Source of the DNA: ANME-2 cluster archaeon
Lineage (GTDB): Archaea > Halobacteriota > Methanosarcinia > Methanosarcinales > Methanocomedenaceae
Assembly (NCBI GenBank): GCA_019429385.1
Contig: JAHYIS010000025.1
Span: 1-41,918 of the forward strand
DNA length: 41,918 bases
Direction: 5' to 3'
The notes below the pieces were generated by a model. It worked only from the letters and a program-made list of their open reading frames with translations. It was not told the origin of the DNA and ran no database searches. Positions 4,540 through 38,500 of the stretch are shown in pieces (position 1 is the stretch's first letter; each line of letters begins with the position of its first letter). The position numbers and the translations under genes are program-made.

Positions 4540-5095
4540 GTAGAGTAAAGGAGTGGCTTTCACCACCGCCTCCTCATCAAACCGCACGTACGGATTTCCC
4601 GTATACGGCTTTCGTTTGGCATTGTCCCTTAGCAGGAGATGGATTCATCACTTGATGCTTCCACCGGTCTTTGGTCTTCAGCAGTTATTCCATCATCTTC
4701 ACATATTATCCAGATGGCGTTTTTCCTTACTTTATTTCAGGAGCTACCTTTCTGGCATTTTTTTTATCCGATTGATGTTATCATGCTAAATCCTCTGACT
4801 CTACCAAAGCTAGAACCCCTTCGCTAAGTTGGGTTTTACTTCGTACAGTCGCCCCCTGCATCCTGCGATGCAGGTTCTGTATGTCATTGGCCCAACCATT
4901 ATGGCTACTATGAGTTCATCCGACTTCTCATGCTGCATTGGTCTGGCTTTCCCATCAGGTTATACCTCGCCTACCTGTTCTCCTTCCTTTGAGTTCATTG
5001 AACCTGAAACGTGTAGGATGTAAACCAGCGTCAGGCAGGACAGCATAAGACCTCCCTCGAATAGAATTTGGAGGGCATCCTGGCGCGGGTGCATG
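4540..5095 (-). mobile_element. ORF-less group II intron remnant
   Basis: On the minus strand this block reads like a bacterial-type group II intron from which the reverse transcriptase gene is missing. It ends in a well-formed domain V (4579-4611), then a domain VI-like stem and a CTCTAC end near 4540. The middle (4830-5000) contains the stretch usually found in front of intron reverse transcriptases; one frame gives the words EKSDELIV and GKARP, interrupted by stops. No open frame longer than 80 codons makes sense here. The 5' end near 5095 is uncertain because no clean GUGYG was found. Splicing ability is unknown. Confidence 0.6.
4579..4611 (-). ncRNA. Group II intron domain V
   Basis: On the minus strand AAGCCGTA pairs with TGCGGTTT, then a 2-nt CG bulge on the 3' side, then TACGG pairs with CCGTA around a GAAA-type loop. 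This 33-nt shape, with AGC near the base and the two-base bulge, is the catalytic domain V of group II introns. Confidence 0.8.
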
Positions 5096-35579: not shown

Positions 35580-35716
35580 TTAATTATCCCCCGTAAAGTA
35601 ATGAATGGGCTGGAATATTTCAATAATTATATTTAAGGTCAAACTATTTAGGTGATACGGATTACAGGCAATTTTACCTAGAATCAATACTTATCCAATT
35701 GAAAAATGATGGTACC

Positions 35717-36310
35717 ATGAGAATCGCAGTTGTAGCAATCCAGGGAAATGTTGAAGAACATATATCAGCAGCAAAAGGAGCCCTGAAAGAGATGAGAGTG
35801 CCGGGGGAAGTGCTCCCGGTGCGGCACAGTGGTACCATTCCCACCTGTGACGCCATCATCATTCCCGGAGGTGAAAGCACTACACTGGGCCGGCTCATGG
35901 CCCGCGAGGGCATCGATAGAGAGATTAAAGAAGCTGCCGCTGCAGGTAAACCCATAATGGGCACGTGTGCCGGCCTGGTCCTGCTGGCAAAGGACGGCGG
36001 TGACCAGGCCAGGCGTACCGGGCAGCATCTTCTGGGAATAATGGACATGAGCGTGGACCGTAACGCTTTCGGAGGTCAGCGGGAATCTTTCGAAGTCCCG
36101 CTGGAGGTATCAATACTGGAAACGCCATACAATGCAATATTCATCCGTGCTCCGGTAATTACCAATGTTAAATCCGGTGTCGAAGTACTGGCCACTTTTG
36201 ATGACTATATTGTCGCAGCAAAACAGGGTAACGTTATTGCCCTTGCATTTCATCCGGAGCTGACCGGGGATTTCAGGATACACCGGTACTTTTTCGGACT
36301 CGGGAAATAA
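35717..36310 (+). CDS. pdxT: Pyridoxal 5'-phosphate synthase glutaminase subunit PdxT
   Basis: 197 residues from ATG 35717 (MRIAVVAIQGNVEEHI); TTG 35699 is an in-frame alternative with no support. Class I glutaminase: IIPGGESTT, nucleophile Cys84 in GTCAGLVLL, and the His179-x-Glu181 pair in AFHPELTGDFRIH. It releases ammonia from glutamine for PdxS, which is not in this window. The downstream region holds the two small RNA loci. Confidence 0.95.
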   Translation: MRIAVVAIQGNVEEHISAAKGALKEMRVPGEVLPVRHSGTIPTCDAIIIPGGESTTLGRLMAREGIDREIKEAAAAGKPIMGTCAGLVLLAKDGGDQARRTGQHLLGIMDMSVDRNAFGGQRESFEVPLEVSILETPYNAIFIRAPVITNVKSGVEVLATFDDYIVAAKQGNVIALAFHPELTGDFRIHRYFFGLGK

Positions 36311-36370
36311 AACGTCGGGTCCAATCCCAAAATCACGATAACGAATAAAAAATTGTCTATGAATAAATGT

Positions 36371-36459
36371 AAAGAAGCAAACACAATCTAAAGGGTGGGA
36401 GTATAGAGTGAAAAAAAATTTTCGAGTGCCTGCTTCTTTTAGTTCGTTCGAGAACGAAC
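36371..36459 (-). ncRNA. Putative small structured RNA, copy A
   Basis: On the minus strand the presumed transcript begins with hairpin GTTCGTT-CTCG-AACGAAC (36459-36442), then, after 2 nt, a stem of 9 bp (AAAGAAGCA 36371-36379 with TGCTTCTTT 36431-36439) enclosing a 51-nt region that contains TATACTCCC and ACCC. The T-rich run at 36345-36360 on the minus strand may terminate it. A TATA box (TATTTAAAT at 36482-36490) is centred 27 nt before the hairpin. No ORF is present. Copy B has the same plan. Confidence 0.6.
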
Positions 36460-36481
36460 GTAGACACAATGTGGCATTTCG

Positions 36482-36540
36482 TATTTAAATGTTGTCATAG
36501 TAAATAAATTTTCGATGAGTTAACGCAGTTAACCCGTTCA
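36482..36540 (-). promoter_or_regulatory. Promoter region of small RNA copy A
   Basis: On the minus strand AACTCAT is followed about 25 nt later by TGACAACATTTAAATA. The same blocks occur in the same order before copy B, so promoter and putative upstream element are duplicated with the RNA. GTTAACT occurs twice (around 36518-36533), a possible regulator site specific to copy A. Confidence 0.55.
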
Positions 36541-36601
36541 TTTCATCAAATGTAATCCATGTATATTTGATAATATGGAGCCCATGTCCCCTGTTTTTGT
36601 A

Positions 36602-36702
36602 CAAGAGTTGTTATACAGGGGCTTTATGGGGTGGGAGTGGGGAGTATAGTGTTAAAAAAGACCCCTGTATAACTTCAACTCTTGGTTCGTCTGAGGACGA
36701 AC
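36602..36702 (-). ncRNA. Putative small structured RNA, copy B
   Basis: Minus strand: hairpin GTTCGTC-CTCA-GACGAAC (36702-36685) directly abuts a long stem, CAAGAGTTG (36676-36684) and TTATACAGGGG (36662-36672) pairing with CCCCTGTATAA and CAACTCTTG (36602-36621), with a 3-nt AAG bulge. The 40-nt loop (36622-36661) contains a T-run, TATACTCCC and C-rich ACCCC. TATA box TATTTATAT (36726-36734) is centred 28 nt upstream. CCCCTGT at 36588-36594 allows an alternative hairpin. Confidence 0.62.
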
Positions 36703-36725
36703 AATAATTATATATTCTCACATAC

Positions 36726-36775
36726 TATTTATATATTGTCAGTGAAAATAAAATTCCCATGAGTTCACAGCGTAA
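36726..36775 (-). promoter_or_regulatory. Promoter region of small RNA copy B
   Basis: On the minus strand AACTCATGGGAATTTTA lies upstream of TGACAATATATAAATA, matching the copy A promoter in order and spacing. It lies between the stop of the DNA ligase gene (36797) and the presumed RNA start at 36702. Confidence 0.55.
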
Positions 36776-36796
36776 ATATAATATTGAAAACCAGTA

Positions 36797-38500
36797 TTAT
36801 GGAGTATGATAACCCCGCCCTTTCTGGTTGAGATTCAGTTGTTCGATACGTTCAAGAGTGTCTGCTTCATCGGCACTCTTATCATCCCGCACCCTGACCA
36901 GCCTTGGGAACCGCAGTGCAAATCCGGAATCATAGGTTGGGCTCTTCTGGATCTCTTCGAATGCCACTTCAAATACTACCTGTGGCACAAATTCAAGTTC
37001 CTTACCACTCTCAACCACAATTAGTTCCTTGAACCGGGACGTGAGTTCGTCCAGCATTTCATCGGTGATACCGGTCCCCACCCTCCCTATAGACAGAAAT
37101 TCACCGGTATCGGATTCAATGCATGCCAGATGGTACGAACCGATGAAATTAGCACGCCGGCCCTCGCCCCATTCACCGCCCACAACGGCCAGGTCCAGGG
37201 TCTCCATCAGGGGTTTGACCTTTAACCAGTGTTTACCTCGTTTGCCAGGTGAATAAAGAGATTCCGGATTTTTCAGCATCACCCCTTCATGACCTGCATC
37301 CAGTGCCTGTTTGTATATGCCTTCAATTGTATTGATATCTGATGTTACAATCTGTTCTGCCACCGACATGGTACCAGATGAAATCACACACTCAACCAGC
37401 CGCTTCCGCCTCTGTACCAATGTCCTGTCGAACAAGCTCTCTCCATTAAGGTATACGACATCAAAGAGGAATAACTGGAGAGGTATCTCACCCTTCATGT
37501 TGTCCACATCATATTTCCGCCTGAATCGTTTGAGTATCTGCTGGAAAGCCCCCGGTTTTCCATCCTGGCCCAGCACTACGGCTTCCCCATCAAGCACGGC
37601 ACTCCTGGCATTTACCCCTGTCCTGACCATATCCACGATATCAGGCAGCGAGGCGGTAACATCTTCCAGGCGCCGCGAAAAAAGAGACACATTGTCCCCG
37701 TTCTTGTGTATCTGGACCCTGGCTCCATCGAATTTCCATTCCACTGCCACCGTGCCCATTTCACCGGCTACGGCCGTAATTCCCTGGGATACCTGTGCGA
37801 GCATCATTTTTATGGGACGACCCAGCTTGATATCCAGTCCTGTCACTCCATCCGTACCTGAGAGTTTTGCTTCCCTGGCGACAAGGCCGAGGTCATTGGT
37901 CATCATATACGCCCGTTCAACAGCCTCCTTTAGCACATTGAAAGCCACAGCGATGGCATCCCTGACAATTCCCTCACCCACCCCTATCCTCAGTTCCTCT
38001 ATGGCGAGCCTGGCCAGGTAGATGGCTTCAGAGGATGTGACCACACTGAACAGGAACTGCAAATGCCTGACCCTGGCGGCCTGGGAACCCTTACCCGATG
38101 AATTTGCGATATCAGTAAGCCTGCTATAGACATCCTGTACTGAGAGGCCGGGCTTATCCTGATTGAAGGCTGCAAAGGTAGACTGTGCCTTCTTTGCTGC
38201 TGTCAGTGCATCCCTGGCTGCCAGTCCGACATCCCCGGTCTCACGGACCAGGTTGATGACTTCTTTCACCGGCAGGCCCGAAGCTTTTGAAACAGCAGTG
38301 TACAGGAGGCTGGGACCGATGCCCATCTGAAGGGGACTCCAGACCGGAAATACCAGGCCCATTATGAACCTGGCTACGATCTCAAGTTCATCATCGTCAA
38401 CCTTCTGGAAAAATTCAGCCACCATCTGTGTCATATCCAGTGAACTGGACGTGTCCTCGATACGCTGGCAAATAGTTGCAAAATCCTGGAAACTGGTCAT
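36797..38500 (-). CDS. lig: ATP-dependent DNA ligase
   Basis: 567 residues, the usual archaeal replicative ligase length. N-terminal DNA-binding domain (1-215), then the nucleotidyltransferase domain with motif I EWKFDGARVQIHK (catalytic Lys256), FSRRLEDVT, VLDGEAVV, LFDVVYLNG, EGVMLKN and WLKVKP, and a C-terminal OB domain (LAVVGGEWGEGRRANFIGSYHLAC...). It seals nicks in replication and repair using ATP. Divergent from the RqcH-like gene. Confidence 0.97.
   Translation of the reverse strand: MTSFQDFATICQRIEDTSSSLDMTQMVAEFFQKVDDDELEIVARFIMGLVFPVWSPLQMGIGPSLLYTAVSKASGLPVKEVINLVRETGDVGLAARDALTAAKKAQSTFAAFNQDKPGLSVQDVYSRLTDIANSSGKGSQAARVRHLQFLFSVVTSSEAIYLARLAIEELRIGVGEGIVRDAIAVAFNVLKEAVERAYMMTNDLGLVAREAKLSGTDGVTGLDIKLGRPIKMMLAQVSQGITAVAGEMGTVAVEWKFDGARVQIHKNGDNVSLFSRRLEDVTASLPDIVDMVRTGVNARSAVLDGEAVVLGQDGKPGAFQQILKRFRRKYDVDNMKGEIPLQLFLFDVVYLNGESLFDRTLVQRRKRLVECVISSGTMSVAEQIVTSDINTIEGIYKQALDAGHEGVMLKNPESLYSPGKRGKHWLKVKPLMETLDLAVVGGEWGEGRRANFIGSYHLACIESDTGEFLSIGRVGTGITDEMLDELTSRFKELIVVESGKELEFVPQVVFEVAFEEIQKSPTYDSGFALRFPRLVRVRDDKSADEADTLERIEQLNLNQKGRGYHTP

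Follow-up and report, generated by a model that had tools for sequence, protein, structure and literature searches.

What do the two related units lying between pdxT and lig in the genome of an ANME-2 cluster archaeon (Methanocomedenaceae) encode, and what controls them? The window analyzed here is the whole contig JAHYIS010000025.1, 41,918 nucleotides (nt) long. In it, pdxT (Pfam SNO; 35699-36310, plus strand) and lig, the gene of an ATP-dependent DNA ligase (36797-38500, minus strand), are convergent; both units of the gap are on the minus strand, B nearer to lig and A farther from it. We consider it likely that A and B are genes of trans-acting small RNAs (sRNAs), members of a family found throughout the Methanosarcinales, that they are repressed by the redox regulator MsvR and derepressed on oxidation, and that their C-rich loop lowers the translation of target mRNAs. 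Both follow one layout: AACTCAT, then TGACAA..TAAATA, then a palindrome located 27-28 nt after the TATA centre, and finally a long stem whose loop contains a U-run and a C-rich tract. A preliminary description, made from the letters of the window, had reported these motifs and had proposed a pair of paralogous genes for small RNAs, each with its own promoter, that share no open reading frame (ORF). All of these features are present in the sequence, no ORF common to both units was found, and the proposal is supported by the results below. The features are the following (BRE, transcription factor B recognition element).

36515..36521, minus strand: upstream element AACTCAT of unit A, read from the sequence and conserved in the alignment
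36482..36497, minus strand: BRE/TATA of unit A (TGACAACATTTAAATA), read from the sequence and conserved in the sister genomes
36443..36458: palindrome of unit A (TTCGTTCTCGAACGAA), a TTCGYN6RCGAA site predicted to be an MsvR operator (about +2 to +18)
36371..36439, minus strand: main sRNA stem-loop of unit A, stem AAAGAAGCAGGCAC / GUGUUUGCUUCUUU with U-run and C-rich loop (fold z -6.0)
36393..36406, minus strand: C-rich loop of unit A (CUAUACUCCCACCC), presumed seed, invariant in 6/6 A copies
36759..36765, minus strand: upstream element AACTCAT of unit B, read from the sequence
36726..36741, minus strand: BRE/TATA of unit B (TGACAATATATAAATA), read from the sequence and conserved
36686..36701: palindrome of unit B (TTCGTCCTCAGACGAA), predicted MsvR operator; msvR promoters carry the same box
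36602..36684, minus strand: main sRNA stem-loop of unit B, CAAGAGUUG..UUAUACAGGGGUCU / AGCCCCUGUAUAACAACUCUUG (fold z -7.3; 14 homologues)
36628..36649, minus strand: C-rich loop of unit B (CUAUACUCCCCACUCCCACCCC), presumed seed, where the loop is most conserved among relatives

The folding and the conservation of the long stem were analyzed. Folding energies are -27.9 kcal/mol for unit A and -38.5 kcal/mol for unit B, values equalled in neither case by any of 200 dinucleotide shuffles. The stem differs in sequence between A and B and pairs in both, as the preliminary description had it, and relatives add compensatory changes. Sister genomes G001, G002, G004, G005 and G006 also have the tandem pair between pdxT and lig; sister genome G003 has unit B only, and G007, of the same genus, has neither unit at its lig gene. 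Single B-type copies adjoin lig in genera g4 and g2 and stand beside pdxT in g3, and in related genomes the units are also found beside unrelated genes (thrB-like, hypA/lysA-like). Among 14 copies of the B-type stem, 95.9% of the cells are paired, compared to 36-49% with slid partners, and seven pairs show two-sided changes. The stem of unit A, for which six close copies come from six genomes of the genus, shows one two-sided compensatory pair and is less informative than that of B. Upstream of the promoter of the lig-adjacent RNA in genus g4 (L008-L013), direct repeats of about 22 bases (TTCATCCTGTA..TCATTGACAATTTATT) were observed, possibly sites of another factor.

The preliminary description had suggested a covariance-model search of related genomes, and this search yielded many more copies with compensatory changes. 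Three models were used to find family copies: R1, built on unit B, R2 and R3. R1 matches occur in nearly all genomes of the archaeon's own family and in nearly all those of Ca. Methanoperedens (family f5); one further match, in G124 (L052), was rejected as apparent chance, and locus L059 was left out. The copies found with R1 share the layout of the window units, GTTCGT-N4-ACGAAC being followed by GAUAAGCGGG..CCCGCUUAUC enclosing UUUUUU..ACGAUACCACCCACUCCCC. The Methanoperedens genomes G033, G076 and G069 also have such a copy a short way downstream of lig, the arrangement of the window; most other Methanoperedens genomes do not have it there. In the Methanosarcinaceae (family f4), models R2 and R3 detect the stem-loop without the palindrome, and R3 has matches in 174/185 genomes of the order. 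Methanothrix copies were detected with a DNA pattern; bacterial matches to this pattern (Glycomyces, Komagataeibacter, Sphingosinicella) were discarded as chance in high-GC genomes. The family core was examined on 18 sequences, drawn from a small fraction of the matched genomes and in part used to train R3: five of its ten pairs changed two-sidedly, none changed on one side only, and shuffles never reached its covariation score. Methanosarcina-type genomes carry 2-3 copies with doubled CCCCCACUCCCC loops, and the loop sequence varies between family copies. Two variants were seen in passing. One is a second RNA subclass in Methanoperedens-type loci (L154-L157, L075), with a GUGGGCAG stem and with TTCGTATATATACGAA directly adjoining the TATA box; its copies often stand in tandem at a spacing of about 135-190 bases. 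The other concerns Methanolobus-type loci (L141, L142, L147, L148), where the sRNA promoter is preceded by a conserved palindrome-like element, CCTCATNATAATGATGAGG; between TATA and stem there are short stretches, variable in sequence, that are self-complementary.

The archaeon's own genome contains four further family copies (C9:63696-63750, C2:65934-65986, C50:1136-1184 and C63:1218-1267). Canonical-type stems are present in the copies on C9, C2 and C50 (that on C63 was not read directly); direct reading found no MsvR-type box upstream of these three, and a genome-wide pattern search found none at any of the four. The C9 copy has glutamate-synthase-like and CoA-disulfide-reductase-like genes as neighbours. 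Units A and B have the feature common to the family: one long stem, with compensatory changes, whose loop holds a U-run and then a C-rich tract. Their stem sequences differ from the canonical family stem UGUGAGCGGG / CCCGCUCACA, which is absent from both. Judged by sequence, A and B are divergent members of the family that carry an MsvR box. Since the direct link through R3 is weak (E 7.7e-4 for unit B, unit A being unmatched), the units are tied to the family through the lig-adjacent Methanoperedens copies L063, L069 and L443. Rfam 15 gave no relevant match for the window, for the locus at permissive thresholds or for the canonical copies, the gathering score not being reached, and a sequence-based search of the literature available found no description of this RNA.

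What, then, is the palindrome? MsvR is a V4R-domain redox regulator of methanogens; its binding site is given as TTCGTAN4TACGAA, or more widely TTCGN7-9CGAA, lying across the transcription start or BRE/TATA; the M. acetivorans protein, thought to be a repressor, binds DNA only in the reduced state (these points from PMC3729527). A TTCGN7-9CGAA site overlaps the core promoter or start site at both A and B. The palindrome GTTCGT-N4-ACGAAC is better explained as a DNA operator for MsvR than as an RNA hairpin, although here it would also be transcribed. It reads GTTCGTTCTCGAACGAAC in A and GTTCGTCCTCAGACGAAC in B, with a top pair T-A in the former and C-G in the latter. The preliminary description had taken this change for covariation in an RNA hairpin; the change itself is there, but its value as RNA covariation is weakened because the dyad symmetry of an operator predicts the same change. 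Within the palindrome, the TTCG/CGAA core hardly changes and variation is confined to the inner bases, unlike the second stem, which varies compensatorily.

The genome also encodes MsvR, a protein of 248 amino acids (aa) with V4R and ArsR-type helix-turn-helix domains that matches the NCBIfam equivalog NF053755 with 276.6 bits (cut-off 220). In its 2.4 Mb there are five TTCGYN6RCGAA sites in total: those of units A and B, one in the msvR promoter, just upstream of the gene, and two others next to genes of unassigned function. Of the last two, which are exact consensus boxes, the one at C26:20342-20357 (L080:1501-1516; TTCGTAACCATACGAA) precedes an ORF starting MNNYRVPDNFVFIDCNGNTLRIGSPVRY; the one at C45:1959-1974 (L081:1501-1516; TTCGTATGATTACGAA) precedes an ORF of 186 aa (L081:962-1519, minus strand) that has no Pfam or NCBIfam match. 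Of 24 msvR loci examined in the own family and Methanoperedens, 21 have a TTCG-N8-CGAAC box directly before the TATA box. A box 17-28 nt before the stem is present in 24 of the 111 distinct RNA gene copies, compared to 0.86% of background 81-nt tiles. In the Methanoperedens copies L075 and L154-L157 the box directly adjoins the TATA box and would thus precede the start site. MsvR is present in most genomes of the order; families f2 and f3 (the latter GoM-Arc1) are without it, have the core RNA family, and yielded no RNA copies of the MsvR-box type. A second partial box (GTTCGYCAAYRTACGYATGTTCGT) was observed just upstream of the MsvR box at the Methanoperedens-copy loci L063, L069, L315 and L330, which suggests tandem MsvR sites.

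In the mechanism that we favour, each unit has its own archaeal promoter and, where transcription is predicted to start, a palindromic operator. In reduced cells, MsvR bound to the operator would block transcription; the direction of this control is taken by analogy from the M. acetivorans protein. Upon oxidation MsvR would leave the DNA, and RNAs A and B, of about 90-110 nt, would be derepressed. Their exposed C-rich loop would then pair with G-rich ribosome-binding regions of mRNAs, which would be translated less. This last step is adopted by analogy: M. mazei sRNA41 (Buddeweg et al. 2018, as summarised in PMC5867862) is described as covering several ribosome-binding sites within polycistronic mRNAs. 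The preliminary description had likened the C-rich loop to an anti-Shine-Dalgarno sequence that could target ribosome binding sites, an idea that is plausible and close to this mode of action. Of the whole picture, the sequence data show two conserved and covarying structures, an RNA family, an msvR gene and the match of the operator, which extends to the promoter of that gene; MsvR binding, transcription and target pairing are inferred.

Several results weigh against this proposal. The raw number of sites in the own genome is five, against three for a reversed-pattern control, and elsewhere it is often below the control; as site number is not clearly above control, the case for the operator rests on the positions of the sites. 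In genus g3 (G009, G011) no MsvR was detectable and the palindrome is kept as TTCG-N7-CGAA, which fits either a role as RNA hairpin or a recent loss of MsvR. Conversely G008 (genus g2) has MsvR, yet the core of its RNA palindrome is lost (TTCTTAAAAAAAGAA). Two copies of unit A, G001A and G002A, break the DNA core and keep the RNA pairing through G-U. In M. acetivorans, several oxidative-stress promoters are described as unbound by MsvR (PMC3729527), so that its regulon is poorly known. As for targets, duplex energies of the loops were computed for 380 genes sampled from 400 kb of the own genome, with reversed loops as control. Start regions gave somewhat better pairing than the interiors of genes, but they did so with the reversed loops too, and the mean energy at start regions is no better than that of the control. 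The exact loop-complement pattern GGGAGTGGG shows no excess over its reversed control in three genomes. Neighbouring fpoH-/fpoI-like genes (L403) are among the best start regions for unit B; they are not significant and stand as candidates only.

The g3 palindromes and the G-U pairs of the two unit A copies are what one would expect if the palindrome, which folds and would occupy transcript positions of about +2 to +18, were a functional 5' hairpin serving RNA stability or protein binding and unrelated to MsvR, the RNAs being constitutive or regulated otherwise. We regard this as rather improbable: the palindrome matches exactly the published operator and the box of msvR's own promoter in the same genomes, its predicted place in Methanoperedens L075 and L154-L157 is before the start site, canonical family copies do without it, and its core is kept by sequence and not by compensation. 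That the stems are terminators or insulators of the convergent genes pdxT and lig, and not RNA genes, is suggested by their position; we give this very little credence, as the units have their own promoters and a conserved loop sequence, occur beside unrelated genes in related genomes, and have four relatives elsewhere in the own genome.

A further explanation concerns the action of the RNAs, which might serve as a sponge for a protein (for instance an Lsm/Sm-like protein bound through the U-run, or a factor binding the C-tract) instead of pairing with mRNAs. The conserved unpaired parts are indeed the U-run and the C-rich loop, and the sampled genome showed no target enrichment. Set against this, loop variants between copies suit target pairing, and the intergenic sRNAs sRNA41, sRNA154 and sRNA162 of M. 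mazei are described as masking ribosome-binding sites. A sponge thus appears unlikely, if a little less so than the 5' hairpin. The MsvR-controlled, mRNA-pairing sRNAs that we favour can be placed among known systems as follows. sRNA41 may be the characterised relative, and the Methanosarcina family copies, before which no MsvR box was seen, may be sRNA41 itself, a comparison made by description; its reported control is by nitrogen, whereas the window pair has different stems and a redox operator. sRNA154 and sRNA162 are likewise structured intergenic archaeal RNAs pairing with mRNA start regions. As they are described, neither fits a single long stem with a C-rich loop: sRNA162 has three stem-loops and a single-stranded linker of 39 nt, its homologues being reported from Methanosarcina alone, and sRNA154 has two loops and is induced by nitrogen limitation. 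With the MsvR regulon of Methanothermobacter and M. acetivorans, the units share the operator, its overlap with the start site or with BRE/TATA, and its occurrence in an autoregulated msvR promoter; they differ in that the targets named in the account of PMC3729527 are protein-coding (msvR, fpaA), small-RNA genes not being mentioned there.

Three things appear to be new: the predicted MsvR operator on sRNA genes, in ANME-2 as well as in Methanoperedens; the tandem pair of divergent members; and how widely the family occurs. The regulator is known for few archaeal sRNAs, and few targets of MsvR are known. In bacteria, redox and iron sRNAs such as OxyS and RyhB repress many mRNAs and are themselves under a stress-sensing transcription factor, and Staphylococcus has sRNAs whose C-rich loops face G-rich ribosome-binding sites; these belong to another domain of life, have another regulator and fold, and are not known to be homologous to the window units. 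Tentatively, and with somewhat less than even confidence, we suggest that ANME-2 and Ca. Methanoperedens possess an archaeal counterpart of OxyS/RyhB, sRNAs switched on when oxidation ends repression by MsvR and repressing a set of mRNAs through the C-rich loop; other family copies would be under other regulators, one RNA scaffold thus serving several stress regulators. The operator match points to small RNAs as a means by which these archaea tune translation when exposed to oxidants, and the link between MsvR and sRNAs at the level of sequence makes the answer of strict anaerobes to oxidants testable, in organisms that control methane emission. An order-wide sRNA family without Rfam entry is now defined, with copies in the cultivable relatives Methanolobus, Methanosarcina and Methanohalophilus. 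Elsewhere in the window, positions 4540-4613 of the minus strand correspond to a group II intron domain (Rfam RF00029, 49.5 bits).
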